From assembly GCA_903813345.2 (NCBI GenBank), contig CAIIXF020000008.1:27946822-28010821 (forward strand): 64,000 bases of DNA, given 5' to 3'. Shown piece after piece: positions 3,201 through 62,002 of the stretch. The translations under genes and the position numbers were made by a program. The stretch is from Owenia fusiformis (lineage: Eukaryota > Annelida > Polychaeta > Sabellida > Oweniidae). The notes beneath the pieces were generated by a model, which saw nothing but the letters and a program-made list of their open reading frames with translations, had not been told where the DNA came from and searched no databases. Every line of letters starts with the position of its first letter. Position 1 is the first letter of the stretch.

Positions 3201-6200
3201 ATATTTGGGAGTGAAATTGATGGCCTATGTTAAAATTCCAAGGTCAAACTGATCTGGTCACTCTCTAAGACAATTTAAAAACAGGATTTTGGTTAAAATG
3301 TATTGATTCTATCTTTGTTTTTCTCAGTTAAAACATATTTACAGATAAAATTACCTTTCAAATTATTTTTATCCATTAAATATCAGTTTATTTGGGAGGT
3401 TTTAATCATTAACTTTTTTATTTGAAAGGAGATTTTTGCAGTTTTTATAGGGGTGTTTTGTCAAAGAATTTCAGTTGAATCAACAATTTCACAAGCTTCA
3501 CAAGTTCAGGGTTTTCATTCGAATTTTATTGTCATTGGAATAAACAGTTAGAAAGTTTGTTGCTTTCTCTGTCAAAATTTGAGCAAAAAATCATTGAATA
3601 AATGTATTTGACAATTGTTTATTAAATATTTATCGATATACTATATTTAGTTATGGTTTAATTTACACAGGAAATCATTTTTATGATAATATTGAATATT
3701 TTTATAGCACCTTGGAGATTTGTAATCAGTTTGTTCAAATAGTTTTCATCACCTTTGTCGTTATTTAATACTAGAGTAATTTCAATTTTTTCAATTTTTA
3801 AACTGTAAAAATGTATAAAACTTCAGATGCGAACTTCAATCGTACATCTGCCGTCCAATGGGTGGATACAAACAACTGGTGTGTCACTGCTCACCCTGAT
3901 GACCCATGCCCCTCTACCCCAGCACCCCCCATGCTTGATACAGAGAAGGTGCCCTGCAAATATGATGACGTTACTTTTCCAAAGGGGTCAGCATTTTATG
4001 TCAATTTGGCATCAAAATTATTGTTGAACATGAAATCTTTGACATTGAATGGGCAGGTTTGTTTGTTTGTTATATATTTTCTGCAACTTTCTTTGAAAAC
4101 TTTTACAAATGTGTATAAACATGTCTAAAATATGTAAACTAATATTGTCATGATTTTGAACAATTGAAGGCCCTGTGCAAAGCTTGAAAAGCGGTTTAAA
4201 AGTTTATATGGGGCATTTAAATATAATTCATGTTAAAGAAAATGAAATTGGAATAAAATGAAAAAAACATAATCTCAATTTTCAATTCATAGGTTTCCTT
4301 GATATTCTAATTTCTCTATCTAGAATAAGGTTTCACATTTAAATACAAGCCTTGATGTTTTGAATTACAGGGTTTTTCCACAAATACGTTCTCTGCATAT
4401 TTGACATCCAACATGGGGAAGAAACAGTTTGTCCAAAACCAAGGTTCCAGTCCAACACGCATCAACATCAACGGGGATTCGTGTTATGATGTCACTGGTT
4501 GTGCGTGTGGCAATGATCAAGGAAATGTAAGTTTGGGTGAATGTGCAATGACCCTCGATGGCAATTTGATACTACATACAGTAAGCTTTTCTGGCTTATA
4601 CATGTAAACTGAAAGCATAAACTCCAAAGCATCAGGCAACGAATCTAAGGGTTCGAGGTTTGATTCCCACACGGGGCATTGAATTTAGCACAATTCTTTC
4701 ATTCCTATCTGTTTCTGGTTTGTTTACACTATGATCTGCATTTTGTCATTCTTCAGATGGACCCTTGAGTCATTACAAATGTTTTGGTTCGGATGACCAA
4801 GGTACGTCAATCTGGGGGTCTTTGAGAGGAAAATTATTTTGAGATATGAATTTGGTGATTTTACTCATTATATTTCCATGGCAACTCCATAAACACCCTC
4901 AAATCTTGTTGATAAAACAAAGTACAACATTAGAGGATTGATTATCTGGACATTTTACACTTGGAAAAATTCATAATTTTAAAGTCAGAAATAATATAGT
5001 CTCAAAGCTGGAATCTTACAAGTACAGTTCCTACATGTAGATGATGCATTCTAGTAGAAAGAACATACTATTAGATAACAGTGTCTAATAGAATTCTATT
5101 TGCATAGGTGCTAGCTGCTGTGTGTGCTGTACAGTCCAGTAGATGTACATCACCAATGTGTAGATCAGCACTCACACCAACGGGTCACTGTTGTCCAATA
5201 TGTGGTAAGTGGCTTCATTCAATGCCCTTCTACTTAGCACAGAGCAAATTCAAACAAATATTGGGTCCACAAATTTTGTAGGGCCTCTTTGGGCATAACT
5301 TCGCCTTTGTGGACCTTTTTAGGACAAATTATCTAAAAATGGGCCTTAAATTTTCAAAATTTTTCCCTTTTCAGCTTCTGGATCCACCAGTGAATAACAT
5401 AGAATGGAACCCTCCAGCCCACAAAAAAGCAAAAAGCAAAATTTGTCTTAAAATATAATGTTTGAAATGTTTAGAATGCACCATGTACAATGTCAATTTT
5501 GAAAATTTTCTGGGGTTGAACCCCTATCCCCTTTTTGGGGCTCGCTTCGTTTGCACTGGTACATAGCCAAAAACAAATCCCCTTGACAATACCTGGCTAC
5601 GCCCCTGAATAATATAGAACATATTCATTCAATGTCCATATGCATAGAACACACATACATACGTTGTTGATATTATTTGAACTTTTAGGTGCTGTGATAG
5701 AGCTTGACTATGGGGCAGGGTTCAGACTTGAGCGTATCAAGAACATGATATCTGAAGACATAGCCTCAAAGGTATAGTTTCACTTCACTACTATATAGGG
5801 ATTTCATTTCTGAGTTAAAGATTGAATGGACATCAAAGAAAATTATGTAGTTTCTAGATATGTCACCAACACAAGTGATGACATATTGTTATGGTCTCCA
5901 ACGTTTTTGTTGAGGATGGTGTTTGGCATTTGGTGTTTGGTGTATGATGGTCAGTGTTCATCATCTATAACAAATAGCAGGTGGTGACATTTTGCATATG
6001 CCTTGTTTCTGCTATTTTCAGAAGGATTTCAACAGCAGTTCAGTTCAGATGATGCTGTCAAAGTTGAGTTCTGGTAAAATCCAAGTGGTTCTATTGGACG
6101 ATCACGATGGCATGATGGCTGTAGATGTGGGCCGTACGGTCACTAGGAAGATTGAATCTGGTAATTATAGTACTTAATAACATTTTGGAACCTGTGTTCA

Positions 6201-10565: not shown

Positions 10566-12039
10566 ATCAGGCGTTTTATTATACATTATGAAATGTTTGT
10601 CGAGAATATCTAAGAATTAGAGTGATGTATCACTTTCACTTCAAACTCCAGGAGCACTGGTACCATGAATCTTACTTATATAACGAAATTCAGTGATAAA
10701 AAGTCACCCATTTTTAGAGGAACTTTTTAGCTCATTATACTTTTGCAGTGTTACTGTAGAAATTCTGTAAAATCCATGAAAGTGAAATAAGCACAAATAA
10801 CACAAGGAGTTTCAGAACGATATTCAAAAAAATGAGAAAATAATTAATTTAATATGGTTATCCCCATTGAATATCATGTTTTTGAAAATTCATGTTTATG
10901 GTTCATTAATTAGTACTCCTCAGTTTCATGTATTGTCTGTTTCAATCGACCTCAGAGCCACCCAAGCCTCACTTGCATTTGTTACTTTGGTTCTTATTTC
11001 ACTATCTTTAAATGATGGGAAAGCAAAAACTGCTGTGCATGTTTTTGTGGAAAAAGGATTTTGATAATTGTTCTTTGAATATCAGATGACATGCACTGAT
11101 ATATCGTCATAACAGTAACTTTTATGCATTCATTGTATCAACTCAGCAGACTAACAACATCAATGGTTACAGTGCATTCTGATTGGTGAAAGTGATATAC
11201 CATATGCGAAAAGTGTGTTTAAGAACGAACAAGTCAAGTGCCTTTTAATTATACCATTTATTGTGATCACAAAGTATTTTTTATAACAAATAAATATTAA
11301 TTTCTTCAAATTGGATTTTTCAATTAATATTTCTCTTTCAAATGTAATTTGTCTTGATATCAAAAGTACATCTGCATTCAAGACAAGATTTTTCCAGGGC
11401 CTCCAAATGTTTTCTTTAAAAGAAAAAAGAAAAAATTATCTCGTGAAAGGGCCATATTACTATAATAATCAAAAGGCCAGGAAAAGTAATTCCCGTTTCA
11501 GTCACCTGAGTCACTTTGGCAGTCTCTTTGGTAAATATGATTTCTGTTTTCCAGTTCCTTTATTTTGCTCCAAATATAGTGGTGGTTTTTGAAACCATTT
11601 TATTGCCATCTGATGATAAGAGATGGGTTGATATTGCTGAGCTATCCTCCTTACATCCATCATTCTTTCAAAGCATGTTCTTAGATTTCTACTGTTGTCA
11701 ACGTTTCACCAAACTTGTAGAGGCTCTGAAATAAACAGTAAAATATTCATTATTTCTTGAAGACTAACAGGTACTTGTACATGGTCAAACAGGGCTTTAA
11801 TAGATGATTCCTTGCAATGTAATACTGGGATGACATCTATTTGTGTAATCTATAGCTAGCGGAGACCTTCATTGAAAAAATTACACATGTCATGTGGTTT
11901 ATTAAAAGGAGTTAATCTGTTTTGTGTTATGCAATGGATAGGACTAATCCAGTTGGTTTCAAATAACCTGATTAGACAGGTTTAGGGTCTTCCTGTCATC
12001 CCTGAGCAGTATGATGTATTGGGTGTCCAAAAAGTCTGA
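10566..12039. other. Convergent intergenic region between amnionless and SART1
   Basis: AT-rich sequence between two genes that point at each other. Apart from a possible polyadenylation hexamer near 11288 and TTTATT (AATAAA on the minus strand) near 11570 and 11597, I see no feature. Short open frames on both strands show no recognisable domain. Confidence 0.5.
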
Positions 12040-12041
12040 AA

Positions 12042-12845: not shown

Positions 12846-15800
12846 TGAGTACTAGGAAGGGAGTCTTCTCAGAGTTCAACTTTTCCTTTAGTCTGGCAAC
12901 TGTATTAAGGGGCGTGTCTGTAGAACTCATTTGTTTCATAAGCTGTAAATAAAGCAACAATGAGGCATCAACATGCAAATGTCACTACCTGCCATTTGTT
13001 CAGACGCCGAATACCAATCGCCAAATGCTGAACACCACCCACAAAATAGTTGGAGACTGCCAGCCATCATTTCTTCTCAATATTAACAATACTGTTCCTT
13101 TACTTTTCAAGTGACAGCAAAAACCTCTAACAGTAGAATCTAATCTGTCAGCTGGTATTTGAGTTATCAAAGATTAAATTTTCATGAAATATGGTGGCCA
13201 TTTTGAAAGCGCTTTCATGTCCATAAGGCACAGTCTATAAAAGTATAAATTTGACGACCAGTTTTTGAGTTATCATCCAAACAGGCAATCGGATACTAGT
13301 AAACAGTTGAAGAGATGGACAGACAGACAGCTTCTTTGTATCCTCTTCTTGAACTTTGGTGACCTCAAAGTACTGTGAAAAGGGCAGGAGAAATCAAGAA
13401 TAAGAGTTAAACATGTAAAGTGGAACACCTCTGTTAATAGAACACTTTTCAGATTCTGAAGACTGACTGACAATGTTAAATGAACCTCTGTAAGTGAAAC
13501 ACTTTTTAGAACCAAAGGTGTTCCACTTAGACAGGTTTTACTGTATTTCAAACCATCACCCACCTCTTCCTCTTCGATTTTCTTTTCTCGTTTTTCTGTT
13601 TTCTTCTTTCCAGATCCTTTTCCATGAAATCTATGAGACAGAACCCGAAAGGCCTCTTTTTGGTTCATAAATCGTCCATTATCATCGACATATTCAAGTT
13701 GAACTATTGGTTTATAACCTGCTTTCTCTTTGAAGTCCATGGTTATACCACTGAATCGATCTCTTGTCTTGTTTTTATATTTTTCATCAATATCGCTGGA
13801 AATAGAATATTATAGGTTATTAAACAAGTAATGTATTACAAAATTGAGAAGATGTGTCAATATGTGGACATTAAAAGTACATCTTTAAACCATATATGGT
13901 CACATTACATTGGATCAAATATCCTGATATCAATTTTTCCTATTCCTATCTTCTCCGATACACGTCTTGTACCTCAATCTAATTTTGCTACCACATGTAT
14001 GTAAGTTGGGTCTTATTTTTGGTATTGATGGATTCCGTAAAATATTGACTTTGTTTACTTTTGATTCTACTCTATAGATTTAGCTAGTTCGTTCAAATTT
14101 TATGATAACTGCCAAATTATCTCATTATGATGACATCTATTTGGGTAATTATTCATTGGGTTGAAGGTTTTCTCCCATTTCACAGGGGAATGAGGGGGCC
14201 CATAACAACTTCATCTCACTCCAGTTGAGTGTTATTTTCATGGGTGTTATTTTTCTCCCACACACAGTCTAGGGGTTCTAACACTCTGCATGTTCATGAT
14301 CAGCACACAAAGTTATTAATATCAGCTATTTTGGAACATAATATGAAACCCAATGCAGTGATATTTCCACACAGAGCCATGAATTTACTCATGAAGACAG
14401 GAAATAATTTCTTTTGTATCCAACAAAAAACTGTTATAAAAGTACTATATTTAGTTTTGACATTTTGATCAACAAAAGAGAATTATCAGCCTACATGTTT
14501 TTCAGACACATATTGATTGAGCGTGAAGAATGAGCTTGAAAGCTCAGAATGTCAAAAATGTGCGGATGTAATATACAGGGTGACACTAAATATATTGTCT
14601 CCTATAATTTTGAATTTGAATTTTCAATTATATTAGAATCTCCATACCTCTACAAAAAACAAGATAATGCTTTGTAAGTACACCAATGTCATATCAATAT
14701 CAGTCCTGATCCCAAATATGTGATTAATCACTTGTTATTATATACCTTTTAATGCTCTGACCATGGTCTTAGAATCTCATTTGGCATATATTTGCCACCA
14801 ATGCAGTTGACACTTTATAGCCTATGTACTAAAAAAAATCATGATGATTCCATCATTGAGAAAGCTACCCCAAAATTCTTTGTCACTCTGTACAAAGACA
14901 AACAAAAGCTGTTGAAGCATGGGTTGCAACGGATATGGTAAGAATGGTTGATTGGAGTATATAAGGTGATATCGAGTAGGACATATTTGTCTCACATTGA
15001 AAGGATGATGCGAAGGAAACTCATCATTGGATTGCTGGGCTTGGTACTTGTGCAAGTTGCACTTGCAAAACAAGGTATAATTCAATTAAATTTTGCATTT
15101 AATGTTAAAGTTAAATTAAGTTCAGATCAAATGAAAGTTTTTCCTAATGTAATCAAATTGTTAAAATTCTTTATTGGTTCTTAGCAGCCCTTTTGTTAAG
15201 ATTTGAGAATCTTAAATATTAAGAAACAAATATAAAATGCAATCATAATGATTTGATGTGAGTGTTTTCTTTTGGCAGCTTTGGAATCAAAAATTAGACA
15301 ATGAATAGGTATACGTATTAGGATTTATTTGAAAACGTGATACAACCAAAAGGAAAACTCTCCCTTTAAAAGACCCAATGGCATTCAGCTTTCAAATAAG
15401 TGCCAAATGAGATTCTAAGACCATGGTCAGAGCATTAAAAGGTATATAATTAGTGATTAATCACATATTTGGGATCAGGACTGATATTGAGATGATAGTG
15501 GAATTAGTTTAGCGGAATGATATCAAGTTGGGAAGATATCAAGACATCTATATCATCCTACTAATTCTGATATCATCCTGGATATTCCTGTATTCCCAGG
15601 AAAATCCATTCATCATTGAATGTAGTACTCTAAAAGAAAAAGGAACAATGACTCACAAAAGGACTTCCTGTGCTTTAAGCCTTTAATGTTATTACTAGTC
15701 ATAATTTCTAATGTTTAGAAAAAATATATTAAACATACATGTATATGCCACTAACAGTGGAATCCAGAGTTAAACCTGTCAATTATTTCACAGAATCAAT

Positions 15801-18800
15801 CATATGATATTCCATTGCATTCTGTTATTCCAAATGTATTGAGATATATATGCCTGATGCCATTTTGAGAATTAAGGGAATGTGTTTAGTAAAGGCACTC
15901 CCAATAAAAAATATTTGGTACTAATAATTTTTGTATAATTTGGTTTCGATATTTGGGGAATGGATACATGTTGTTTTCTTAAATCAATGATATTTAAAAA
16001 ACAATCATTCAGGATAACAAAGTATTTATACTCATGTCTTTTGTCCTCTATGCACCAATTGCTGTCTTCCTCAATAACCCCCTTAGCCTTAGTTGCTCCA
16101 ACCTTTTTAACAACTTCTTTCTCAAGATACCCTACAAAGAATGTAATAATTATAACAAGGCTTTAACATGCAAAATGCCATTTGTTACAGACGCTAAACG
16201 CCGAACACCAACCACCCAATGCTGAACAATCAACAAAAATATTGAAGACTACAACAATATGTAAAACAAGGCATTATCATGCAAAATGTCACCGTTTGCC
16301 ATTTGTTACAGACACTGAACGCTGAGCACCAATCTCCCAATGCTGAAAACTGTCCACAAAAAGTAGGAGACTACAACAATATGTATATAATAACAATATG
16401 TCACCACTTCTGCTGGTGACAAAACTAGAGGACACAAGTTGCAAGCAAATTATAAAGACTACTTTTATTGAAATGTATGTCCATGTGGTGAGTGATAATA
16501 ATCACCACTGTTACAAAATTCCTCTTCCACTTTTCACAAAAGTAACCTATACCTATATATGTGCTAACATTATCTGTGGTTAGTACTTTTCAAAAAATAC
16601 ACCCAAGAATCGTTCTACACAATGTACTTACATTTTGGAAACTGAAACACAGAGTGGCACAAAGAGTAGTTTTGGAATTTTTCAGTTTTGAATGAATCTT
16701 TTTGATTTTTTGTGAAATTAAAGTGTTCAATGATTGAAAGTGCATTCTAGAGGAAAAATTGTTTCTGTCTAAGCATGGTCTGAAATCTAAACATTCATGA
16801 ATATTCCATCAGAGCTGAGATGATTGTGAGGTTCTTTAAACGTTCATCGAATAATAATATATTTTATCTCATCTGAGGAGCTTATTTGAGGAATCAAAAT
16901 ACTACAGCCACCATGCTGAAAATTCCTTGAGAGCAGAGGTCCTGTTCCCATAGGATTAAATCATGCCTACCTTTACTCATGGCCAATGCAAGGGCAGCGC
17001 CCATACCCTCTGCAGCAGAAGGCTCCTCTATTATAACTGCTTCATCTTTGTCATTATCTAGATCAACTGGCTGCTCATCTATCTCAACTCTTGCCCAACC
17101 AGTTGGGTTGGCCTCCTCTTCTTCCTTTCTGCGCCTTTCCTCTTGTAGCTCACGTTCAAAGTCCTAGAAAATTTGACAACTCTAAGCTTTTGCTTAAATA
17201 CAAACACAAAGCAACTAATACTGTACCATTCTATTTAATCACTCATTAGACATGAAAGAGTTAACAAAAACTATTTAACCATTCCTTGAACATGAAAGAG
17301 TTAACACCAACTATTTAACCATTCCTTGGACACAATAGTTAACAGTTATTTAAGCATTCCTTTAGACATAAAGAATTAACAATATCAATTTAACCAACCA
17401 ATAACTCCTGTTGGTCTTCAGTTCTATTACCAGACTGCCCATAAGTTGGTATATCTCCAAGAGTACGACAGAATTCAGCTACAGAGTTCAACATAATGTT
17501 CTTCTGCCTCGTGTCCAGTTCCATGTCATCGGGATCAGGCTCAGAATCAGATGGCTCTTCTTTTATTGTCTGGACAACATTCTCTGCAACCTGAAACATT
17601 CAAGAGAACCAATGTATACACATAGAGGACCAGGTACCAATAAACACAAGAACATCAATTGATTTCATTTTTTCATTTTTAAACTTTTAGCCATCTGTTT
17701 TTTTGTTAATGTGTTATCATTGTCTATTTTTGTTTTGGGACATAAATTGGTGGAAGCGATTTGGTCAAAAACTGTATATGCACTGTACATTTCAATTTAT
17801 GAAATAAACATATTGAATAAAACATAGTAATGAGTTGTGTCATGAAATTATGAGATGTTTTTTCTTAGGACAACATCTGCTTGAAAACACAGAACAGACA
17901 ATTGGATGGACACGCAGATAGATGGTTTCCTTATATCCTTTCTAAATCAAATGCATTATTTCTTAACTAATAAATAGGCTATCAAGCATTTATACACTCA
18001 CCATAGTAGGAACTGATGTTTGCTCTTTTTTATGTTTGAGTTTTCTAGCCTTTCTGAGTGCTAATTCTAATTCCAAAGCTCCGTCATCCTCATCAACAGT
18101 CACACCAGTCAAGTCTTCATCGGGTCCCTGAATCTCAGCTGCAAAAACATGAGTCAGAAACTAGTGTTAAAGCATTATAAACGTACACAGGGCATTAACA
18201 TTCAAAAGTTCGCAATTTACCATTTACAGACACTGGACACCAACCACCATCCACAAAAAGTTGGAGACTATAACTTTACAATATGTCACCATTTCCGGTA
18301 ATAACGTAGTATCTAAATACATTGCATAACGAGATAAGACAGCAATGCAGAAAATCCCATCAAATCTTTTGTGAAGCCTTGGACAAAGATCAGCCAAAAT
18401 ATAACTAGATCTTAAAAACAAGGTAGGTGTGTTTGAAAGATTGTTGGAGAGAAATAAAGTGAACTGAACTTTCAAGGGCACTGAAGGTCAAATCAAGGTG
18501 AAGAAAATCGAAAAGGGAGGGCAAAAATCTAGATTAAAATTTCTCAAGAACTGATATGTTTTTAAATTATTACTCATGCACACATCCTCTCAATTTTATC
18601 ATTATCTTTATATCAATTACATTAAGTTCGATAATTGACTACCATAATATTGCATTTTTTAATTTCAAATTTTCACAGGATGACAAATAAAACCACATTA
18701 TTAATACTGAATTGCATTGAAATTTAATTGGATGTTACTCGTGTTGTTAATGCTTACAGTCATCCATTGGGTCTGGCTTATCAACTTCCATCATGTCTTG

Positions 18801-39336: not shown

Positions 39337-42300
39337 ATGGATTCTGATGATGCCTCCCTCTCCGAAGAATTTCAAGAACTTCAGCTCGAAAGGACCATAA
39401 CTAAAAGTTTGAAGGTAAGACATTGACATTTGAAGCTTTGAGTAGCAGATTCACTGATTCAAGTCATGCCATTTGTGGTTTGTAGTTGTATCAGCTCAAA
39501 ATAGAGTAGTCTCATTATGATTATTGGTCTAGTCTAAAAGAAAAAATAAGCGGTTGAAATGAAGGACCACTGCAAGTTTGCAACATTAGATCTAAGGCCT
39601 AGGCTATATGGAAAAAAAAACTTTTGTATATTTTGGTATGGTCTGGTTATCTCATAGGCTCGGGTTATCGCATCCTACGACCCCCACAACGTTTGTGGTT
39701 GTACGTGCGAATCATTGGTCAGTCAATGTTTTTACACTGGAGAAAAAACTACGCATTGCATACTAAATGACCTACCTCGACACATTCATGAGTATTTAAG
39801 AATCCTTTTTATGTAGTTGAACCGCCAATTGTATGGGTGTATCGGCAGAACGAAGAGATTCTCGTTTTTGAATCGGAAATATTAAGGTCAGGGTGCATGA
39901 TGGGAAATTTTCTGCATTCCTCAATTGAGTCACATGTTATTTTTCAAACAAGAATCACTCCTTCCCTTCATTGTCTATATCTTCCAGTTTTGCACAAAGA
40001 GTGCACTTATGTGCCTAGAAAAGACTTGTGAGAAGAATGTTTTGATAAAGTGTATAAAAAACAAGAAAATTCAGTGAAAAAAATCAGAAAATTTTCAAAA
40101 TTTTTTTTCACTGAATTTTCTAATTTTTTATACATTTTACAAAATAAACATTCTCACAAGGCTTTTCTAGGCACAGAAGTGCACTCTTTGTGAAAACTTG
40201 GAAGATGTAGACAATGTGGGGAAGGAGTTATTCATGTTTGAAAAATAACATGTGACTCAATTGAGGAATGCAGAAAATTTCCCAACATGCACCCTGTCCT
40301 TAAGCACTTTCCAAGATGGCTGAAGCTCGTCGGAGGGGGATTTGTCTTATGACTGGTGCATGCAGTGACCTGATATATTACTAAATGGAGGAATTTGACG
40401 GTTGAAATAAGTTAAATATTACATGCTACCTATTGCTATCAAAAATGAAAATCTCTTCATTCTGCCGATAAACCCATACAATTGGCGATTCAACAACATA
40501 AAAAGAATTCTAAAATACTAAGGAATGTATCGAGGTAGGTCATTTTAGTGTTCAATGTATAGTTCATTCTCCAACATTGTAGAAACATTGACTGACCAAT
40601 GGGTCCCATGTACGACCATAATATAATCTAAAGTGGTCATACTGTAGGATTCCATAAGGCTCGGGAACATGAAAAAAAAATCTTATGGTTGTCATCCAGT
40701 TACTGCTGTGGAGATCCGGGGGTGGTCATCACACTGTAGAAGTATTCTAGGCTCTAGGGTCGTCTTAGCTTTGTTGATAAGGTCATTCATACACAAGGTG
40801 TTTACTTTTTCATATTTTTCAAAATGCTCCATTCAAAAATCCTTCAAGAAATGGGTTAAAGTGGAGAATTAACATATTATCTTTTGAACAATCTGCTGCC
40901 GGAAAGCAGGCCATCTTGTTGCGTGAGCACAATATGTTGAGGTCCAGTGAAATTGTCACATAGATTTCTGAATTAGCTGCACAATCATCATTTTAATGTA
41001 ATGCATTGTCTATGTTGAGGAAAGGTTATATATCTACTGATTACAAACAGTCTGGGAGCAGATCGGGGACTGGGTTTATGAGAAGGCTGAACCCCCCCCA
41101 CACTGACTGGTTGGCGTTTTCTCAAGGTAGCCTCAAAACAGGGTTTGAAGAAATTTTGTAAAATACTTATCATATGTATAAAAGACAGACTTCCTGCCTT
41201 TCTTGTCTTGGTTATTGTAGTTGTCATATGCCAAGTATAATGTGTGTCCTCTGACAAACCAATTGACACAAACCATGAGCTTTCAAGAGAGTACTCTTGA
41301 AGCCCCTGGATCCACATGTGACCAATTGACTTGCACTATAGGAATTACGTTTTTTGGTGTTTACTCTATCTTTTGACAAAAGTAGAACTTTTATGTATCT
41401 AGGTAATTATGAGTTCACCTGTGAACTTTTGCTTAATAAATTGGAAGTTTAGCTTATAAATTTTTTTCTGAGTTTTTACCATATCACCACCATTAAAATG
41501 ACATGTTGAACAAATATTTAAACAAAATGTAGTCCAAAAAATAAATCCTTGGAACAAGCTATATCTCAGTTATTACCCGCATTAATGGGCTAATATTCTT
41601 ACAAAGTGTTACATTTCTTAAGTTTTTATGGGTACCATAAAGGTCACTAAGTCTGAAATCTTACAGGGTTCAGTTTTTTGGTGCACCCTGTTTTCTTAAA
41701 GAAAAATATATATAACTAACTAACTATATTTTTACATGTAAGGAAATTCTATTGCAGACTGCTGAGGAGATTGAACGGTTGACTGTTGATGTCTTACTGA
41801 GTGATATTGAAAGGGCAGTTTATCTGTTGAGGTATGTCATATGTTTTTATTCACATTTTAAAACTATAGTATTTATAAATCAATGAAATATCGCAAAAGT
41901 GCTTACGATACAGTATATTGGTTATGAGCCATAGAATTTTCTCTGATCTCCCCGGGAATTTTCTCAACAAGGTGTAAATTTTAGGCTCAAAATATGGTGC
42001 GGATACATTAGAAGGGGTTTCACTAGAATTTCTCACAACAGGCTAAAGAAATGAAAACAACAGGCAAGATTACTGGAAATCATTAGTTTAACATGGAAAA
42101 GTTGAAAAGTCCCTTAAAACAACAGGCGATTTTGTGAAAACAACTGGTGAAAATTGCCTGTTGCCTGCTGTTAATGAAACCCCTGTAATGCATTTAGAGA
42201 GATTTTGTAAGTTCACTGTTATAATTAGTTGCCTCTTTCATGATTTGGGGAATTCTATTTTTTGATAGGATTTAGGACTACAAAGAGTTATCAAATTAGT

Positions 42301-45300
42301 TGTTGTTTGGTTCCTTTGAGAGGCAAAAGCTAGGATGAAGTCAGAAAGGCAAAAGTCACTTTTTAAGCTGGTTTTGAACTATAAACTAAACTATAATATG
42401 ATGTTTAAATAACATCACTATCTCGATAAATATTTTCTCTCATATTTAATACGAAATGTCCATAGTAATATTCCTAAGGTTTCTCTACTAATAACCCAGG
42501 GAAACATACCCAAACGTCTGTTTGTTCGAATTCAAAGTCAATCTATTGTAATTGAATATTGAAATATTCATGTTTGGAAAAGTGCTTAAAAATCTTAAGC
42601 CCAAAATGCTCATATTACAGACCAGCCACTTTACAAGGAAACTTTAGTAGCTTGAACTGCCACAGAGCAGTCATTGTAAAAAAATAACAATTAATTGCAA
42701 ATATTGTACTTAAAACTTTGAATGGTACAATAAGAAATCACATAAAATTTAGTGCTAATTTGAAGAATGTGCAAGAGAATGAGGTAAAATTTCATTTTGC
42801 TGAGGAAAAATAGGGAAAAAGTAAGGCACTTTTTAGTCATAAAAACTTAATACCCTGCACAGTCTAATTTTCTAGTAGATATACAATGTACACGGACACA
42901 ATCTATGAGAAAAGAAAGAATGCATTTAATTATAGAGGGCATCATTGACTTATATATTCCATTATATCTGGAAATATATTAGGTTTTAGAACTGCAGTGA
43001 AAAGATAGATGTCATAGGAACATCAATTTTGAAATGCTGCAAGAGCTCGTTATCTTATCACATTGATTTTTTCAAGCTCCTCTCAAATATTGGGCAATTT
43101 GGATAGGACACATAATAAGTCAAATATCTTTGATATTACTATACTAGTATTTTGCTAAAGCTTCAAAAATATTATACAAAATAAAAATGGCACACGCTAT
43201 TAGGAATATTCCTAGTCAGTTTGGTCTCAGATTTAAGATTTACTAAAAAGAATCACTTTAGAGTAACAGCGTATGGCCAGTGATCCCAACACATCGAAGC
43301 AACTTGCATCTTGTAAATTTGGAGAACTCTGATAACATGAGATATGTTGGTACTTCCATGGGCTTTCAACATGATGGGACGAGGCTTTCTCTTTAAAGCC
43401 CATGGCACTTCAAGAGTCATTGAAACAATTCATGTGCCAAGTGTAGAAAGACACAAGTGATTTTTCCTTTAGTTCTATTGCGATATAATGTTGACTTGTC
43501 CATCATGCTATTATGTCACCACCAGAAGTGGTGACATATTGTTTTAGTCTTCAACTTTTTTGCGAACGGTGGTTGGTGTTCGGTCATCGGTGTCTTTTGC
43601 AAACGCCAGTTCAATGATCTCCCCAGCATTAAAGCAAGTGGGCGCTTCACCCATCTTAGATTTTAAAAATAGGCCTGCAGCCACTTGAAAATCCATTTGC
43701 ATCCACTTGAAATGAGAAAAATCATGAAAAATGGGAATATGTTGACCATTTTCGCTCTGGATTGTGAAAATCAGAATTTTGCACCCACTTGAGAAAAAAT
43801 TCTGTGGAGATCACTGCAGTTGGTGACATTTTGCATGTAAATGCCTTATAGAAACTCATTTCCTGATGAGTTTGAAAGATACAATCAGTATTAAGTTGCC
43901 TTTTTCCTAATGTTGCAATTTTTTCATTAGAGCGAAAATTATGATTTATCACAGTTAGAAAATTATGAGATAATAGCCTATAAAATCCAAGCGTCTCAAT
44001 TCAGATGACACCAAGGAAGGTCTGGTAGCACTACAATCCTTCATGATTAACCAATATATACTGTTTACGATTGGCTAATTGATAACATGGAATTCTGGGA
44101 CAATTCTCATATTGATTAGTTACTCTATTATCTCAGGGTAATAAGGACAATTTCCCAATCAGTGATGACTAATCCCTGGAACTGCTATTAAAATTATTGA
44201 AACCCAATGAATATTAACAGAGATGTCACATGGGGATGGAGGTCTTCCTGAATCCTGACTCTGTTTATGAAGTACACTTTTGACAAATCTTACCTAATTT
44301 ACCATTTTTACTTCAGAGCTTCATAGACATTCTTTGAATAAGATCTGATCTGAAAGATCAAAATTAGGTTGAAATTCAGCTAACTGCCATCTAAGTCACA
44401 TAATTACATACCTTCTTCAAAAAAGCAATTATTTTCTAATCAGACTTAACTTGAAAAGCTGACAGCAACTTTTGTGGTCATAATCCATTATACTCAGAGG
44501 GTAGTGGCACTACCTCTGGGCTTCAAGGTAAAAAGGGTAGAGTGACTTTTATGAAGGAATCTATAAACACCAATTCAGGAATGTTAAAATCTGTTGGTTA
44601 TCTTGTCAACTCAAATATGAAGAATCTAGTTTTTATACATTTTTATCACAATAATAAATATAGATATCACAAAAGCTGAAGACAAATAATCTAAAAGTGA
44701 AGAACCATTTTAAATTCGCAAGTTGAAATGTGTCATCATGTAGCAAAGGACAGTCCCTACATATACCAAGGGACTAATTTACCCTGGGTAATTTACCTTC
44801 TCTGGGGACTTTCATTAGAGCACATTCAGACATTGATAGTCTACTGAAGAAATTTTCAAGATTAATGCTGAATTCTAAATGGCCTCCATTTTCACATAAA
44901 TATGTATTTTTAATACCAGTGTTATTATCAGATACAGTAGCCCTAATTTTATGGACTAATGCATTAATATGGACGGACCTCTACTTGAGAAGGAATTTCT
45001 CATGTGCTACTGTGGGTATAGGTTTTGCTGCTTGTTTTTTCTATCATGTAATATCATAAAACAAGCTATGAAACAGTTTATTTTAACTAATACTTTAATT
45101 TTATTATGTCACCATAAGTGCTGACATATTGTTATATTCTCCCACTTATTTTGTTGATGATGTTCGGTGGTTGGTGATTGGTGGTCGGTGTTTGGTGTCT
45201 GTAACAAATGTTACATGGTGATATTTTGCATGCTAATGCCTTGTCGTAAATTGCAGGAAACCTTAATTGCTATTATTTTCTCGTGCCAAAAATCTATAAC

Positions 45301-48300: not shown

Positions 48301-51300
48301 GGAGGCATAAGGCACAATCTGGATTTATTTAGGATTATCAGAATCTCAGCTTTTAAAGGATTAGTGGATTTGGGATTATTAGATATACCCTACGTTTGTC
48401 TGATTATATTGACCTGATTAGTCTGGAAAGGAAAGGATCGTATTTTACTGATCTAATTTGGATTGAGTAGCTCTACACTAAAATGAACAGAGAATTATAT
48501 GTTGTATATTTGTACCTTCAAACTGTCTGGACAGAATGATTTGAAAATTACATGGATACTTTAACAGTTGTCATTTATTCTCCAGTAATGGTATGTTAAT
48601 GAGAGGTTTAATTGGTTTAGCCTAGAAATGAGAAAGCCAATAGTAAGAGCTTGTCCTGCTGTTGTTAATCTGAGAGACTGCTTCAGTGGATAGGAGTACA
48701 TTGGCATTGAAGTAGTATAGAGATGGGAAGCACACTCAGCACTTAGATTTATGGATCAATCAAACTGAACGAGGAAATTTTTTAGATGTCATTAGCCAAA
48801 TCCTAACATACAAAATTTTCGTGGATGAATCAATGAGTGTTTTATGGATTAATTCAAAGAAAGATATCAGCCTTATATGAGATTTATGTGATAGTATCAT
48901 CAGTTCGGATACTGAACTTTGGAATCCGACATATTGGGTGTAAACATTTATGAACAGTGTTTCATTTTCTCTAGAACAACAGGAAGGAAGTGACATTGAG
49001 TGTTTGATGGATACGTGATAGATGTTGGTGAGGTTATAAAAGTTCATAGGCCATGGATGTAAACATCTGATTGGGTTACTGTTTCTACTATATTGTTTAG
49101 TTGAATTCTGAGTCTGTAGTGGCCTGTAGTGTTTCTCAGGAAATTGAAAAGCAATTTGATCTAGATGTATATATGGTGTTAACCATTTAGTCAAACATAC
49201 TGAGTTTGAAACCTGGGACAAAGTTTAATTGAAAAATTACAGAATTATTGGAGGAGGAAAATATTTTAGTTTATCAATCTACATCTGGTTGATAGTGATT
49301 TCCTAATGGTATTATCAAAATGAAGGCTGAATCTTGCCAGGATGTACAATCAACAAGAAAACATGTACTATGAATAGAAGCTCCAACATACAGATTAGAT
49401 TATCAAAGACCTGAGTTATACTGACTGGATTATTTGTTCAACTGTAGGATGTTTACCATATAGGATAGATTAGATTAACAAATAGTATAATTTTTCATGT
49501 GAAATACATATGTCTTACTGAAAATAAGAATCGGTAACATGGAGTAAAAATCTCTTGATAATTTTATATATATTTGAACATTATTTGATTTGTAAAATGG
49601 AGGAACCTGCTGTTTTATGCCCAACTGAAACCAAACTTATCAATTTCATGTTAGAAAACGAGGATGCAATATTTGGCAGTACTCCATTTGAGGATAAAAT
49701 CCTCAGTATTGAAGATTTAGAGGATACAAAAATTCTCGATATTGAAGATGATCAATTTGTTCCCGATGTATCATTTGGACGAGCTGGAACTCCGTTATGT
49801 GAGGATAAATATGAAAATGATTTAATTGAGAGATTTGAAACAAATGGGAAAATTTATGATATTTCTGATCTTGAAGATCGTGTCATCAAAATTGCGAGTG
49901 ATGAGGATAACAATTATCTACATGCTGAGTAAGTACCTTCTCTTATCTACTGTTTTTATGGTAACCCCCACCCCAGAACCCAAATTCTTTCAAAATCATG
50001 CAGTTTTCACCATTCTAAGCACTTTCCAAGTGATTTTAGGCCAGAGTTGTTGAATGTGAACCCCCTGGAATTTTTTGAAAAGTGACCCCCCTCCCCTTGG
50101 CAAAAGCTGACTATGAGCCTGAATCCATCTATCATAATATACAGCCATCAAAGCAGTGCGTATACAAAGATTGTTGAACAAGAACCAAATCAAGAATCAC
50201 CATTGGAGTTGTTCCATGTTGCTACTGGAAATTAACATACAGCAAAACTTGTTTAATCCAAATGGTACTAAGACAAGCCAAAAGTGTTTGGATAAGCAAA
50301 TGTTTACATTTCAAAGTTATTATGTCACCAGCAGAAGCGGTGACATATAGTTATAGTTTCCAACTTTTTTATGGACAAGGTTTGGGGGTTTAGTTGTTGT
50401 TCAGCATTTAGTGTCTGTAACAAATGACAGGTGGTGACATTTTGCATGTTAATGCCTAGTTTAATTTGTGAGTCAATGGAGAATAACAAATGAAGAAAAA
50501 TGTTCACATGGAGAGTTGTTCAAATTAGACAGTTGTTCAGCTATACAAGTTTTACTGTATATGGAAGATGGATGCAATTGTTACAAAGTAGAATTGAATC
50601 TAAGCCAACCCGAGATGTCCCCTCCTTAGGGATGGTGTTCAATTATCAACAGTTATGGAATCACGAAGTTAGTTTTGTTAAGAGGAGGGGTAAATGTAAT
50701 GATGGTTTTGCTAGCAAATACTGTTGTTTTTATTAGCTCACATGGTGAGCTTTTGCAATCACTCACTTGTCCGTCTGTCTGTCTGTCCGTCTGTCTGTCT
50801 GTCCGTCAACAATAGTGGCACGTTTTAAAACCTCTGTCGATAGGATTCCTGTTTTAAGTTATTTCTGTTCAACATCAATACAGAAAACCCCCCTATGACT
50901 CCTGGTTCAAAAGCTCGCCTATTTTCAAAATGGCCGTCACTTTTGTCTCGCGAAATTCACTTTTAGCCCATTTCCTAGCTAACCTCTGTCGATAGGATTC
51001 CTGTTTTAAATTATTTCTGTTCAACATCAATACAGAAAACCCCCCTATGACTCCTGGTTCAAAAGCTCGCCTATTTTCAAAATGGCCGTCACTTTTGTCT
51101 CGCGAAATTCACTTTTGGCCCATTTCCTAGCTTTACAAATAATTTCAGGTGTCCTACATTGTAAAAATCCATGTCAATGTAAAGATTAGATATATGAAAT
51201 AATTTTGTTACAAAAAATCAGCGAAAAATTGTATCCATTTTTTTATTTTCAGCCATTTTAGTTAACATTGATTTGTCTATCTGACTCGCCAAATCCACTT

Positions 51301-54300: not shown

Positions 54301-57300
54301 TGTGAAGTCTGGTTTTATCATATTAGAGAGTGATTGTGGTTTCCAACCAATGTTACATCTACAGACCAAGGTCTGGTAAAGTTCCTGGTATCATAAAATC
54401 CCATCTATTTTTTACAATGGCGTGTGTGGTATGTTGTGTTGTAGACCATCCTGAAAATCTTGAGGTCACGCTGAGGGGTTTAGACAAGGAGGTTCCTGTA
54501 CATGTATCTTTTTTTTTTATCAAACTAAATATATAATCAAACATCATTTTCATATGCCTGGTGTATCCCAAAAATAGTAGTCTTAAATGGTATTTATTTT
54601 TAGCAAAAAGATAGATCAATGATCTCCGCATGTTTTTTTCAACCTAGCGCAGAATTTCTTTTGGCAGAAATTAAAAAAAATTAGTGCTTGTAGAATTGAT
54701 AACAACCATTAACATTCAAAATGTCACCATCTGCCATTTGTTACATACACCAACTATCAAGCCATGAATACCTACAAAAAAGTTGGAAACTTATTACAAT
54801 ATGTCTACTTGTGGGGGTGACATAATAAGAGGCTTATGAGATGCTGGTGTCACAGTATTTGACTTTTTAGTTATATTTAAGTAAATAAACTCTGGAATCT
54901 CCTCTTCTCATAGGTCGTAATTCAATTAGTCAAATTGCCTTTATGCTGCAAACTGGGATATTATCATAATGTTGCAATGAACTTCAATTTACTGTAGAAT
55001 TGGATATACACTTTGGAGCTGGGGACATTATTCATTCCCATCCAAAACTAATGAATAATTTAACATGGCATGATTCTGTCTCATAAAAATGAGCCTTGTG
55101 GACTTGAGTAAAATGAGTTGCCATTTCTTATTTCCCACCACTGTATAGGTATTTCATCAGTCTGGGAGTGCAAGACCCAATATTTTGTTTATGTTTATTT
55201 ATTTATTTCAAATACACACAAAAATATAATACATGAAATGGGTGACACTTAATAAAGTGTATATTCCCAAAATTGAGCTACAATACTACTTGTGTGTTGT
55301 CTCACCTATCAAATGCAAATATCAAATTTCAAATGCAATGGTACATGCACTCTGGATCCCTTCACTGGATTAAGCCGGCAAAATAGAAATAGTTAAAGGG
55401 AGAACAAATACAATAGAGAACATTATAGAATTGCATTACCTTTTCTGCTCTGTCAGATTGCTCTTTACGTTAGATATTGTATATGTGACAGCAAAAAAGT
55501 CAATAGCCTAAAGTATATTCCAAATCTTGTTAATTTGCGAGTTCTTTTTGACATGTATTTGGCCAGTATCATGTTGTTTGAAACTTTACTATCTTTGAAC
55601 AATTAAGGACCAGGATCGATGGGAATGACTCAATTGTAGTTGTTCTCCCTTTAAGGTGTATTTACAAGTTCATATAGTAGTGTGACACTCAATCACTCAA
55701 TACATAGTTCAAAGTTGAAATTATTATCAAGTCAATTTACAACTATACAAATTATGTATAAATGTCCCAAAATATTCCAAAACTTGAAAAGATGAGTAAA
55801 ATAACAATGTGGGAGTACTTTATATTAGAAAATTACTGCAATTGTTCGTAATATCACAAAAACAATTTCCAATATATTTTGTGGTGCCATTTGAAGGTTA
55901 TCACCCTTGTATCTATAGAATTGTGGTTTTGTATGTCCTTTTGAGAGTTCCGATGTTTAATCAATTTTTCAGTGACAAAATGTTATAATTGGAATGATAC
56001 GTAATACACAAAAGACTCCATTAATATCCATCTTTGGTTTTTAAGTAAGTCATCCCTTCTAATAATTTTCATATATAATGGTTCCTATTGCTTTAAAATA
56101 TTTGAATGAATTGAAGAGATAGTTAGAGATTCGACACCTTTTTAGACTGGAATCATAGCATCTTTTTGGTATGCCGCTTTAAGTGAATCTTATCTATGTA
56201 TGCCAATTGTTAAAGGGGAATGTGGGAATTGTGTAATTGTTATAAGGGATTCTGTCATTTCATCAATAATATCAACCTTTAGCATTAACAGGCCTGTCAA
56301 CTGTCCCGCAATTTGCGTATTTGTCACGCATTTGCTGAAGAATTTGAAGTCACGCCAGTTTTTTTTGCGTGACAGAAAATGTCACGCAAATACGCATTTT
56401 ACCAGGTAATTGTCACGCAAAAACATTTCTGCAGAAATTTTTTCGAAATATGTTTACGATACGGTAAAAATACGAACGTCGGAAAAAACCGAACGCAATT
56501 TGTCACGCGAATCCCGTATATGTCACGCATGTTCATTGGAAATTTTCGTACCTACCCCCCCCCCCCCCCCCGTTGACGATACCGCGAGCGTAGCGAGCGC
56601 GAAAAATTTGAGGTGATCAAAGTTTGGCAAAGGTGCTCAAACTTTGGCCAAAGGTGTTTAAAAGTTGGCCAAAGGTGTTCAAAACTTGGACAAAAGTGTT
56701 CAGATTTGGACTTAGGTGTCCAACATTTTGAAGTCACTCATATTAGGTGGTCCCAAGTTGACAGCCCTGCATTAATGCCATTTAGTTATATCCTATTGTA
56801 CATCTAGTCATACGATTGATTAGTCTCCCAAACTATCACTCTGTCCCTAAATGATTTAATATACCAAGAAATATGCATGCTATCCTAATTACATTAAATT
56901 CAACTATTTTCTCTGAAACGTGCATTTAAAGCTAAATTAAGCGTTCTTAATATATTTTCGATTTTAATGATACCAAATCACATTATGATTTAATATCAAC
57001 TTATAAGACAAGGTGAGGGGACATAAGAGGCTTTCAGATCAATTCCTCAAACATTCTTAGACAAAATATTTGCTATATAAGACATATCTCAGATTTTTTC
57101 ACCAGGATATGAATTTTGAAGTGGTTCAATGGGGTAATCAATATGCTTTGTTTCTTGAGTGTGTATGTTACTGACATGTACATAAAAAGTCACTTCGGAT
57201 TAGAACATATTTCTCAAAATATCAAGTACTGCATTGGTGAATAAGCTCGTATTTTCCTACTGAACTGTATATTTCTTAAAATGTCAATGCAAGTGTAATG

Positions 57301-60300: not shown

Positions 60301-62002
60301 TTTATAGTGCTGTAAGAGTACAAGTTTACCAGGGTAGTCAGTGATCACTATGAGAATGTATTTTGAAGCATGAACAATTCAGATTTTCCTAACATCCCTG
60401 ATGCTTACTTATCAGCTTATTGATCCCCTTCCCCGGGTCCCCTCCCCCGGGTCCCCTCCTTTGTCTTTTACATGTTATCATATATCTTTACAATCATGAT
60501 ACAAAGTTTGACAATGGGCCTACGCCTAGGCATTAGTGGCCTCAGGTCCATGCTACATTTATGATGTCATAGTGAAGGTGTGGGGAAAATATATGTAGTC
60601 TCACATACCAGTGTGATTTTTAATCAAGCAAAAAATTGAAAGTTAAAATGTTCCCTTTTTCAAATCAAATAAGTTTTGACATTTCTGCAATCCAATCCAT
60701 ACTCATTTACCCAGTTTGATTTCCAAAAGCTTCATACCTTTGTAATCCAACATGCATCTCAGGCTTGTAGCTAACCCCCCTGGCCAAAATTTCTTTCAAA
60801 ATCATGCAGTTTTTCACGATTTTGAGGACTTCTCAAGTGATTTTAGCCATATTTAGGCCAAAATTGTCAAATGTGAACCCCCTGGAAATTTTTGAAAACT
60901 GAACCCTATCCCCCCCCCCCTTGGCAAATCCTGGCTACGGGCCTGCATCTAATCTTGAATCTTTAAATCTTCAAATCTTCCATATTTGATTTAATTAGGA
61001 GTCTTTTCTGTTTTAAGATTATGAGGATTATAAGAGAAATGTCGGCATGTTTTTTAAAAATAAAATTCTATACGTTTTCACTGTCTCTTCTTTGCTGCTG
61101 CTTTAATTAATGAGTTTTCAAAAACTATCTATTAACTTTAGCAATTTTGTAATCTCGTTAATGCAAAATTGTGCGCCAAATATGGTAGAATTAATGTGCT
61201 TTTTGATCCCTACGAGGTTTATACCAAAAGCAGCGAATGACAGGTCATTAATTAATTACACGAAGGAGATTTATTAAAGGCATAAAAATATGAGACACAC
61301 AAAAGAAATTAACATAGAAACTGTGAGTCATGCATTCTGCTACACATGTGCAGCCATCCAGAAGTGATTAGAAAAAGTGATTAATCTAATATTCTGATTT
61401 ATGATCGCTTTGAATGTTCTGGAATGTTCTGAAAAATTGATGCATGTTTCTCACACTATTTGCAATAAAACTGTTTAATTTGATTATTCGCACTCGTAAA
61501 TGCTAAGGGCTAATTTGAAAAAGTCTGTTCACCCCAGTGGGGATCGAATCCACTAAACAAGATATATTGTAATGATCTTTTCCGTCTGTTCAACTTTCTG
61601 TTCGGCACCTCCAAACATCCGAACCCTTACATCTTTTTAACCAGGAGTAATATGGGGCAAAGTTGACCACATACAGACAATGCCAACCTGCTGGTTTTTT
61701 AGTCTCCAACTTTTTGTGGCAGGTTTTCGGCAGTTGGTGTTTGGTGGTTGGTAACTGGTGTTTGTAACTGCGTTTGACTGTCAGCATCTGTAACAAATGG
61801 CAGGTAGTGACATTTTGCATGTTAGCTTTTTACATTGTATTTTATCTTTAAGTTATTTGTTTATTTTTAAGTTAACCTTTTTTTACATTATGTTTGCAGT
61901 TCTGGTCAAGAGGTACAGAGAGTCAGTGTTATAACTAACCTACCAGATCTCCTACGTGACAACAATGCCGACTGTATGCGACGAGTCGTACCTAAAGTCA
62001 AG
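39337..62002 (+). CDS. PPP4R4: PPP4R4, protein phosphatase 4 regulatory subunit 4 (3' end outside window)
   Basis: Three coding exons in phase: 39337-39414, 41758-41831 and 61900-62002, together 85 codons. The gene continues past the window. Seen: a short acidic start MDSDDASLSEEFQEL, then SLKTAEEIERLTVD, LSDIERAVYLLSSGQEVQ, NLPDLLRDN and RRVVPKVK. These match the N-terminus of vertebrate PPP4R4 almost segment by segment. Family role: HEAT-repeat subunit that binds the PP4 catalytic subunit in the cytosol. Intron 1 (39415-41757) carries a 1-kb foldback; intron 2 (41832-61899, 20 kb) carries many repeats and a candidate alternative first exon. Confidence 0.92.
39665..40656. mobile_element. 992-bp foldback element with 9-bp target duplication
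   Basis: Two long arms (for example CACATGTTATTTTTCAAACA at 39931 and its inverse near 40236) meet at about 40095. The ends TTATCGCATCCTAC and GTAGGATTCCATAA are inverted. Both sides carry AGGCTCGGG (39656-39664 and 40657-40665). About 130 bases near 40310-40440 in the right arm have no partner. It lies in PPP4R4 intron 1; no transposase is encoded. Confidence 0.87.
42013..42185. mobile_element. GGGGTTTCACTAG element
   Basis: The ends GGGGTTTCACTAGAATTTC and AATGAAACCCCTG are inverted. Related copies are 63452-63620 (same orientation) and 47154-47324 (opposite). Confidence 0.75.
43508..43850 (+). repeat. TGTCACC-family repeat interrupted by another element
   Basis: Head TGTCACCACCAGAAGTGGTG at 43515; tail GGTGACATTTTGCATG after 43821. 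The 205-bp element 43612-43816 is inserted between them. In PPP4R4 intron 2, sense. Confidence 0.85.
43612..43816. mobile_element. 205-bp CAATGATCTCC element nested in a TGTCACC repeat
   Basis: The ends CAATGATCTCC and GGAGATCACTG are flanked by CAGTT on both sides (43607-43611 and 43817-43821). Removing the element and one CAGTT restores the host-repeat consensus, which confirms the 5-bp duplication. Inverted relative to 26511-26716. Confidence 0.88.
45103..45245 (+). repeat. TGTCACC-family repeat
   Basis: In PPP4R4 intron 2, sense. Head TTATGTCACCATAAGTGCTG, end TTTTGCATGCTAATGCCTTG. Confidence 0.8.
45546..46256. mobile_element. Cluster of two foldback elements
   Basis: AAATAGTGACTGCC (45546) pairs with GGCAGTCACTATTT (about 45701-45714), with an inner hairpin GAATATCCTCT/AGAGGATATTC. 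Directly after it, TTATTATATACCC (45718) pairs with GGGTATATAATAATA (46243). Both parts contain GGGAATAT-type segments, so the whole may be one complex element. Confidence 0.65.
47154..47324. mobile_element. GGGTTTCA-type element, reverse copy
   Basis: Inverse relative of 42013-42185: GAGTTTCATTAGCAGCAGGC on the left, TTCTAGTGAAACCC on the right. Confidence 0.75.
47840..47994. mobile_element. Truncated GTAGCCAGG-family element
   Basis: Core TCAAAATCATGCAGTTTTTC and GTGAACCCC, right end GCTGGCTATGGGCCTG. The left end is not recognisable. Confidence 0.6.
49597..49928 (+). CDS. Candidate alternative first coding exon of PPP4R4
   Basis: ATG at 49597 (AAAATGG) opens a 110-codon frame ending ..GCT GA|GTAAGT at 49928, phase 2. 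That matches the phase of the canonical exon 41758-41831, so it could splice onto exon 61900. The predicted segment is acidic, has no membrane helix, and contains two related blocks: KILSIEDLEDTKILDIEDD and KIYDISDLEDRVIKIASDED. If unspliced, the TAA inside the donor would end it after 111 codons. No family recognised. Alternatives: a separate small gene, or a chance frame. Its length and low stop content in AT-rich DNA favour real coding. Confidence 0.5.
49985..50121. mobile_element. Truncated GTAGCCAGG-family element
   Basis: TCAAAATCATGCAGTTTTC core, GTGAACCCCCTGGAATTTTT, right end CTGACTATGAGCCTG. Confidence 0.6.
50318..50460 (+). repeat. TGTCACC-family repeat
   Basis: In PPP4R4 intron 2, sense. 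It lies inside a larger repeat with ends ATACAGCAAAACTTGT (50228) and ATACAAGTTTTACTGT (50541). Confidence 0.8.
50733..53060. mobile_element. 2.3-kb element with internal ~337-bp satellite
   Basis: Begins TTAGCTCACATGGTGAGC and a GTCCGTCTGTCTG run; ends CACCATGTGAGCCCAGTACC. In between, CTCTGTCGATAGGATTCC recurs near 50833, 50984, 51332, 51670, 52007, 52344 and 52681. Two unit types alternate (GTGGCACGTTTTAAAACC before the motif, or GACCATTTACCTTAAACC), giving a dimer of about 675 bases. No coding sequence. Confidence 0.8.
53725..54300. repeat. 28-bp minisatellite, about 20 copies
   Basis: ACATGTATTTTGACATAGCT plus TGTGAAGT repeats, with some 32-base variants. The unit has no stop in any minus-strand frame, so three overlapping open frames appear; none is taken as a gene. 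Confidence 0.9.
54301..56280. other. PPP4R4 intron 2, no gene seen
   Basis: AT-rich intron. Apart from the TGTCACC copy at 54706 I recognise nothing. Confidence 0.5.
54706..54832 (-). repeat. TGTCACC-family repeat, antisense copy
   Basis: The only intronic copy lying antisense to its host gene (PPP4R4). ATGTCACCATCTGCCATTTG on the plus strand. Confidence 0.75.
56289..56769 (+). mobile_element. CAGGCCTGTCAACT element with 6-bp target duplication
   Basis: The ends CAGGCCTGTCAACTG and CAAGTTGACAGCCCTG are inverted; CATTAA flanks both sides (56283-56288 and 56770-56775). It contains a poly-C run and six TTGGCCAAAGGTGTT-like subrepeats. No transposase. Confidence 0.83.
56776..58440. other. PPP4R4 intron 2, one degraded element only
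   Basis: A degraded GTAACCAAGG...TGGCTACACCCCTG element lies at about 57300-57492. Otherwise AT-rich intron without recognised features. Confidence 0.5.
58446..58966. mobile_element. ~520-bp foldback element
   Basis: AATAACGTCATTTCT (58446) pairs with AGAAATGACGTTATT (about 58951-58965), followed inward by CGATATAGTGAA and its inverse. Inside, AGCGAAGCGAACGAG sits in a hairpin around 58590, and GGAGTATATCGT...ACGATATCCTCCG is repeated three times. The target duplication is unclear. Confidence 0.75.
58967..59640. other. PPP4R4 intron 2, nothing recognised
   Basis: A small inverted repeat (CCGGTCCAGAATATATTCTA next to GACCGG) lies near 59068. No gene or element boundaries seen. Confidence 0.4.
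59648..59947. repeat. 30-bp minisatellite, ten copies
   Basis: TTGACATGAAATACAAGGGA plus TAGCGGTCTA repeats with almost no variation. The 30-base period keeps a minus-strand frame open as a decapeptide (YPLYFMSIDR) repeat; there is no other sign of coding. Confidence 0.92.
60760..60945. mobile_element. CAGGCTTGTAGC element with 5-bp target duplication
   Basis: The ends CAGGCTTGTAGC and GGCTACGGGCCTG are inverted; CATCT flanks both sides (60755-60759 and 60946-60950). It shares the TCAAAATCATGCAGTTTTTC core with 9504, 47840 and 49985. Confidence 0.82.
60951..61690. other. PPP4R4 intron 2, nothing recognised
   Basis: AT-rich. CCCCAGTGGGGATCGAATCC at 61533 looks like an inverted tRNA T-arm, but no tRNA can be folded around it. 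Confidence 0.35.
61695..61828 (+). repeat. TGTCACC-family repeat upstream of PPP4R4 exon 3 acceptor
   Basis: Sense copy ending GACATTTTGCATGTTAGC about 70-80 bases before exon 61900. Confidence 0.75.

Follow-up and report, generated by a model that had tools for sequence, protein, structure and literature searches.

An intronic repeat family built like a non-autonomous Helentron lies almost always in the direction of its host genes

Genes and repeat copies in the window

The window, by which we mean the whole 64-kb stretch of DNA that was analysed, carries AMN, SART1, a SLIRP-like gene with an RRM_1 Pfam match (the RRM gene) and a gene which we take, following the first-pass annotation, to be PPP4R4. 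The last gene holds the PPP4R4-like upstream exon 41743..41831 (+), which was called by the exon finder described below and bounds a 20-kb intron, and the exon 61900-62002; no Pfam match was obtained for the PPP4R4 assignment. Exon numbers (AMN 7; SART1 17, 19 and so on) are used as given in the first-pass annotation. A dispersed TGTCACC-family repeat had been described there with 16 copies in the window, and this was borne out by the copy map and by the 3' 19-mer of the family, for which 7 window matches were found at three or fewer mismatches against 0.05 expected from shuffling. The exact 19-mer occurs 787 times in the 498-Mb genome, with 386 and 401 matches on the two strands, and its reversed control gave zero exact matches genome-wide.

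The copies in AMN introns are all on the plus strand and in sense. Those at 904..1017 (5' end approximate) and 1187..1353 share one intron, with the exon 944 and 608 nt downstream, and the copy at 5855..6008 ends 13 nt before the exon 6022-6160. The copies in SART1 introns are on the minus strand, again in sense. They lie at 12958..13059 (5' end approximate), about 20 nt from the exon starting at 12942; at 18185..18287, 48 nt from the exon starting at 18138; at 25803..25932, 54 nt from the exon starting at 25748; and as a head-to-tail pair within a single intron, where 16264..16427 is the first copy and 16153..16263 (5' border set at the end of the neighbouring copy) is the second, 21 nt from the exon starting at 16132. 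The first intron of the RRM gene holds two sense copies on the plus strand, 32797..32912 and 33234..33370, with the exon 832 and 375 nt downstream. The copy at 36168..36314 (+) lies between the RRM gene and PPP4R4 and was left out of the genic count. Sense copies in PPP4R4 introns were located on the plus strand at 43512..43847, 45101..45246, 50317..50462 and 61695..61831, the last being 68-75 nt from the exon 61900-62002, and the minus-strand copy at 54700..54828, also in a PPP4R4 intron, is the sole antisense genic copy of the window.

The copy at 43512..43847 is split, with its 5' part near 43512 and its 3' part at 43816-43847, by a repeat of another family, which served as the control in the comparisons below. 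This control family is present in the window at 26510-26717 and 43611-43817 and has 437 exact 17-mer copies genome-wide; one of its copies has apparently been inserted in the TGTCACC-family copy.

Two tandem arrays were also seen in SART1. At 11923-12942, 120-nt units reproduce both the final part of the last SART1 exon seen and its donor site (cttcgtaagtatatacag), giving a row of exon-end and donor copies. At 20381-23437, 162-nt units, 18 of them in register, fill most of a 3.5-kb intron.

Anatomy of the element

A sample of 100 copies, each with 500 nt of flank on either side, showed an element of about 140 bp whose anatomy is that of a HINE, a rolling-circle transposon of the non-autonomous Helentron kind. 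The 5' end is TTTTTATGTCACCACC and the 3' end is GGTGGTGACATTTTGCATGTTAATGCCTTGTTT; the sampling pattern includes the final TTT, and the exact 3' border, along with any insertion between T and T as in HINEs, is thus masked by the pattern. A start was located in 120 of 140 copies, and these have a median length of 142 bp. The 5' arm forms an 11-bp hairpin in the consensus, that is, a palindromic subterminal inverted repeat, and it recurs in inverted form 22 nt from the 3' end, with at least 9 of 11 bases retained in 32 of the 43 copies having an exact ATGTC start. A short 3' palindrome with a 4-bp stem, GCATgttaATGC, is found within the 19-mer, at 7 nt from the 3' end; RNA folding of the last 33 bases chose a pairing other than this palindrome. 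GGTGTTYGG-like units, in a variable run, make up the core. A string of T precedes the element (T 61-79% in the four positions before TATGTC), and the 3' flank is T-rich for about 10 nt, where T reaches at least 0.41 at 8 of positions 2-11; past about 12 nt, A and T are equal in the flanks. No clear target duplication was found, the best agreement of flanking 3-mers among 63 copies (best of 81 offset pairs) being 0.14 against 0.09 after shuffling.

According to the available parts of the report on HINEs of mite, mosquito and fly (PMC4067079), these elements likewise have palindromic subterminal inverted repeats, a short 3' palindrome, terminal T strings, T-rich insertion sites and an optional tandem core. 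They differ in that their 3' subterminal repeat lies 38-60 nt from the end instead of 22 nt, and in that the 3' stem of the mite HINEs is 5-10 bp long instead of 4 bp. Cg_HINE of the Pacific oyster, as far as its description could be consulted (PMC7492417), also has two modules with subterminal inverted repeats and an inner complementary repeat, a 3' palindrome, tandem repeats between the modules, T-rich sites and no target duplication; the likeness drawn here is one of anatomy. The same source reports Cg_HINE in both orientations along assembled sequences and, like the consulted text on the other HINEs, gives no orientation relative to genes. This genome seems to hold intact rolling-circle transposons, as Helitron_like_N gave 58 genome matches, 33 of them in open frames of more than 2,400 codons, many on small contigs (C13, C515, C505 and others). 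Two other classes were considered and rejected. Five loci gave no Rfam match up to E 1, which speaks against a known RNA gene, and ARAGORN with the bacterial code found no tRNA in the window, which speaks against a tRNA-derived SINE.

Position relative to splice sites

The first-pass annotation had noted that six copies stop shortly before an acceptor, and that every SART1 intron holding the family shows this. Both observations hold. The six distances are 13 nt (AMN), 20, 21, 48 and 54 nt (SART1) and 68-75 nt (PPP4R4), and all four SART1 introns concerned, one of them with two copies, have a copy less than 60 nt from the acceptor. Among the 14 sense genic copies of the window, 6 lie within 80 nt of an acceptor where uniform placement in the introns would give 1.2 (P 0.00016), a post hoc value, since the cluster itself prompted the test, and one for which the start of an AMN intron was estimated.

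For the family at large a sample of 140 copies was assembled: 100 listed places of the 787 exact 19-mers (92 on contig C1 and 8 on C2), and 40 more from C1-C5 drawn from 100 listed of 147 matches to a 31-base pattern, two duplicates being skipped. The sample therefore consists of the first listed places on C1-C5 and is not a random draw. When only acceptor scores were used, no clear peak emerged; at one threshold the first 50 nt held 16 sense and 6 antisense candidates. For this reason an exon finder was written. It was trained on 1,063 codons of the window and used at thresholds 11 (strict), 9 and 7 (lenient); at threshold 10 its calls numbered 12 on the strand of SART1 and 1 on the opposite strand. 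In the 140 copies the sense acceptors were spread from 31 to 430 nt beyond the 3' end of the element (42 exons), and the donors lay 12-435 nt from its 5' end (24 exons), 12 of the 24 within 100 nt. Ending at acceptors is thus a property of the six window copies and did not stand as a trait of the family.

A modest excess near exons was nevertheless seen. Sense acceptors at 25-100 nt versus 100-400 nt numbered 19 v 38, 16 v 31, 15 v 23, 11 v 20 and 8 v 15 under five scoring settings, which correspond to density ratios of 2.0, 2.1, 2.6, 2.2 and 2.1 (p 0.019, 0.026, 0.007, 0.04 and 0.11), and the exon finder gave 13 v 28 (ratio 1.9, p 0.08); these six counts come from the same loci and are not independent. 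In the two most lenient counts 27 and 20 antisense candidates stood beside 59 and 48 sense ones. With an excess of about two-fold and donors similarly close, the proposal that the repeat targets acceptors is weak, and acceptor targeting was discarded as the main property of the family. Proximity to exons is a modest effect, present on both sides of the element, and is in keeping with short introns. The median SART1 intron is 409 nt, and the host introns of the window range from 345 nt to 20 kb. A sense copy turns only its 3' end towards the acceptor and many introns are short, so the 3' end is often found near an exon. Mammalian intronic elements are, by contrast, under-represented near exons in the accessible text of PMC3088655, whereas around the present family the density of sense exons is higher, not lower, at 25-100 nt.

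The consensus 3' end does hold TTAAT and pyrimidines, as first read. A branch point usually lies 18 nt or more before the acceptor. Since copies end 13-21 nt before AMN exon 7 and SART1 exons 17 and 19, a branch point at the usual distance would fall inside the element, and at these closest copies the repeat may possibly supply acceptor signals. The copy before SART1 exon 19 has TTGAT, which fits yUnAy, at the expected place; the copy before AMN exon 7 is without TTAAT. The same two features, the motif with its pyrimidines and the three window copies at 13-21 nt from an exon, could be taken to mean that the host introns arose by insertion into exons, with branch point and polypyrimidine tract contributed by the element. 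Introners are likewise dispersed, intronic and tied to the direction of splicing, but in the sections of PMC9860276 available they form the intron from end to end, whereas the present family is a part of longer introns with variable flanks. An element of about 140 bp does not span introns of 345 nt to 20 kb, the distances on the donor and acceptor sides are scattered, one SART1 intron holds a head-to-tail pair, the sense consensus contains no acceptor-like site above the score cut-off, and a target duplication is not clear. The introner-type reading was not upheld by these observations and is scarcely credible.

Direction relative to host genes

The strongest property of the family, unstated in the first-pass annotation, is its orientation. 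In the 140 sampled copies and in the window, genic copies sit in introns and almost always run in the direction of the host gene. The window has 14 sense genic copies and 1 antisense; leaving out those assigned to PPP4R4 (4 sense, 1 antisense), the count is 10 to 0, and some window copies are tandem neighbours and hence not independent. At threshold 11 the first 100 sampled copies gave 24 sense and 2 antisense exons, and the 40 further copies from C1-C5 gave 10 and 0. For all 140 copies, with exons counted within 500 nt on equal flanks, the ratios of sense to antisense were 32:2, 42:4 and 63:8 at thresholds 11, 9 and 7; the antisense calls among these may be genuine. The control repeat (40 copies), after removal of exons overlapping it by more than 30%, gave 8:6, 9:6 and 10:7, and the difference between family and control was significant at each threshold (Fisher p 0.005, 0.010 and 0.008).

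Two features of this procedure could in principle produce the bias as an artefact: the finder was trained on exons of the window, and the copies were the first listed on C1-C5. Before filtering, moreover, the control itself gave 9:6, 13:6 and 32:7 at thresholds 11, 9 and 7, the lenient ratio being high because the finder matches inside the control repeat. An artefact of the finder or of the sampling is very improbable, as the same finder gave 8:6 on the filtered control and as the window copies show the same orientation. Two lines of evidence independent of the splice models or of any exon call point the same way. The first is a Pfam scan of the 150 best open reading frames by codon score (93 sense, 57 antisense), in which 15 of the 93 sense frames had matches, in 11 loci, while a separate scan of the 57 antisense frames at a laxer cut-off matched none (Fisher p 0.0006 by frame; 11 loci versus 0, p 0.001). 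In five loci the same Pfam family was matched on both flanks (carboxylesterase in L035, TRPM in L055, stathmin in L010, TRAUB in L098 and calpain in L187), so that the copy between them is very probably intronic, and all five of these copies are in sense. The second is the strand of neighbouring copies on C1: where less than 50 kb separates the two members of a pair, 8 of 9 pairs share it (p 0.02). Pairs more than 50 kb apart agreed at 0.46-0.68. Agreement confined to less than 50 kb indicates that the scale of the pattern is that of genes. Orientation by replication domain was rejected, as C1 neighbours agreed in only 48 of 91 cases (P 0.34).

In 62 of 100 copies neither strand had an exon nearby; 14 of these were drawn at random, and longer flanks were inspected for 12 of them. 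With 8 kb on each side and threshold 10, 9 sense exons were called in 5 loci and 4 antisense exons in 4 loci, and none in 4 loci; a strong antisense exon, in L112, lay 3.7 kb from the copy. Flanks of 8 kb admit neighbouring genes, and the bias, weaker at this range, is thus seen most clearly in the immediate surroundings of the element. Exons on both sides of a copy were called for 8 of 140 copies and for 0 of 40 controls, a difference that was not significant (p 0.20).

Mammalian intronic transposable elements are likewise strand-biased in introns, to judge from the part of PMC3088655 at hand. The bias of 16 to 1 found here (34 exons) looks stronger, on a general impression and not on a number-by-number comparison. 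In the literature listings searched, which cover few subscription journals, no report was found on how Helentrons or Helitrons are oriented with respect to their host genes in the manner described here.

How the direction may be set

Three causes of the one-way placement were weighed. The simplest would be the preference for T-rich targets alone, which might lead the element to land in sense near polypyrimidine tracts. The T-rich 3' flank described above agrees with this, and such a preference is reported for HINEs (available portion of PMC4067079). However, a model built from the 3' flank predicts a sense to antisense ratio of just 1.23:1 in SART1 introns, and gives the regions near acceptors a weight only 1.13 times that of intron bodies; the equality of A and T past about 12 nt in the flanks also argues against it. 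At 1.23:1, T-rich targeting cannot be the main cause of the orientation, and as the sole cause it is mostly refuted and must be considered highly unlikely.

The second candidate is selection. Insertion may have occurred on either strand at random, and antisense copies in introns may then have been purged for a cryptic acceptor or for other harmful signals. The antisense strand does carry an acceptor-like sequence, CCATTTGTTACAG/A, with a score of 2.7, by which antisense copies might be purged, and of 79 copies whose core is recognisable, 65 have AG at this place. The lone antisense genic copy of the window, at 54700..54828, reads CAT in place of CAG; yet at least two sense copies have likewise lost the CAG and read CAT. 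A precedent has been proposed in mammals, where Alus in antisense bring a cryptic acceptor with them and those near exons are mostly in sense (PMC3088655, in the text available). Against this stand the 40 sampled copies without the antisense CAG, which are as one-sided as the others, with 10:0 sense to antisense at the strict and 22:2 at the lenient threshold, although the CAG may have been lost from them after insertion. Purging through that single CAG is therefore not supported. Furthermore, purging alone should leave sense exons at the control's per-strand density, and they were instead 1.3, 1.6 and 2.1 times as dense at thresholds 11, 9 and 7 (p 0.45, 0.13 and 0.005). This excess, significant at one of the three thresholds only, leans towards insertion and is no proof of it. 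Purging by one harmful signal or another keeps a real, if less than even, probability.

The third candidate, slightly favoured over selection, is that the strand is chosen during insertion and that this choice is coupled to transcription. A rolling-circle transposon would join one strand into exposed, T-rich single-stranded DNA. Transcription would expose the non-template strand, in which case the element would land in sense, and transcription would also be a natural source of single-stranded DNA for a pattern on the scale of genes. That the orientation was set mostly at insertion we infer tentatively, at a little under an even chance; selection against antisense copies with a cryptic acceptor may add to this or, as a distinct possibility, may itself be the main cause. 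The explanation as a whole, a family of HINE anatomy that lies in sense in introns and whose orientation was probably set mostly at insertion, comes close to evenly balanced.

Strand choice by way of exposed single-stranded DNA has a precedent in bacteria, where the lagging-strand template is the target of HUH elements like IS608 (PMC6006769, parts available). By analogy, and with rather less than even confidence, a eukaryotic rolling-circle transposon might enter the displaced non-template strand, and the orientation of its copies might then be a fossil record of the direction of germline transcription. Such an orientation-recording transposon could, equally tentatively, be the counterpart of the IS608-type elements that enter the lagging-strand template.

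If strand choice at insertion is the cause, the family would be a sign of a eukaryotic rolling-circle transposon that reads the direction of transcription, and would bear on the poorly known target choice of Helitrons and Helentrons. If selection is the cause, purging by so tiny an element would be unusually strong. With either cause, copy orientation could be of use where a genome lacks annotation, as a guide to the strand of genes and to their introns. The cause of the one-way placement is now open to testing, and the placement itself explains why the tail of the element so often points to the next exon. Behind the acceptor pattern noted in the first-pass annotation there is a real tie of the family to the direction of its host genes; its strong part is orientation and not position.

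Other features of the window

An open frame starting at MEEPAVLCPTE (49598-49930, +) was noticed in the large PPP4R4 intron. It ends near a donor and has no Pfam match. A long inverted repeat occupies 29030-29712; its outer arms are 76 nt long and 99% complementary, further inner arms are present, and its structure is foldback-like.
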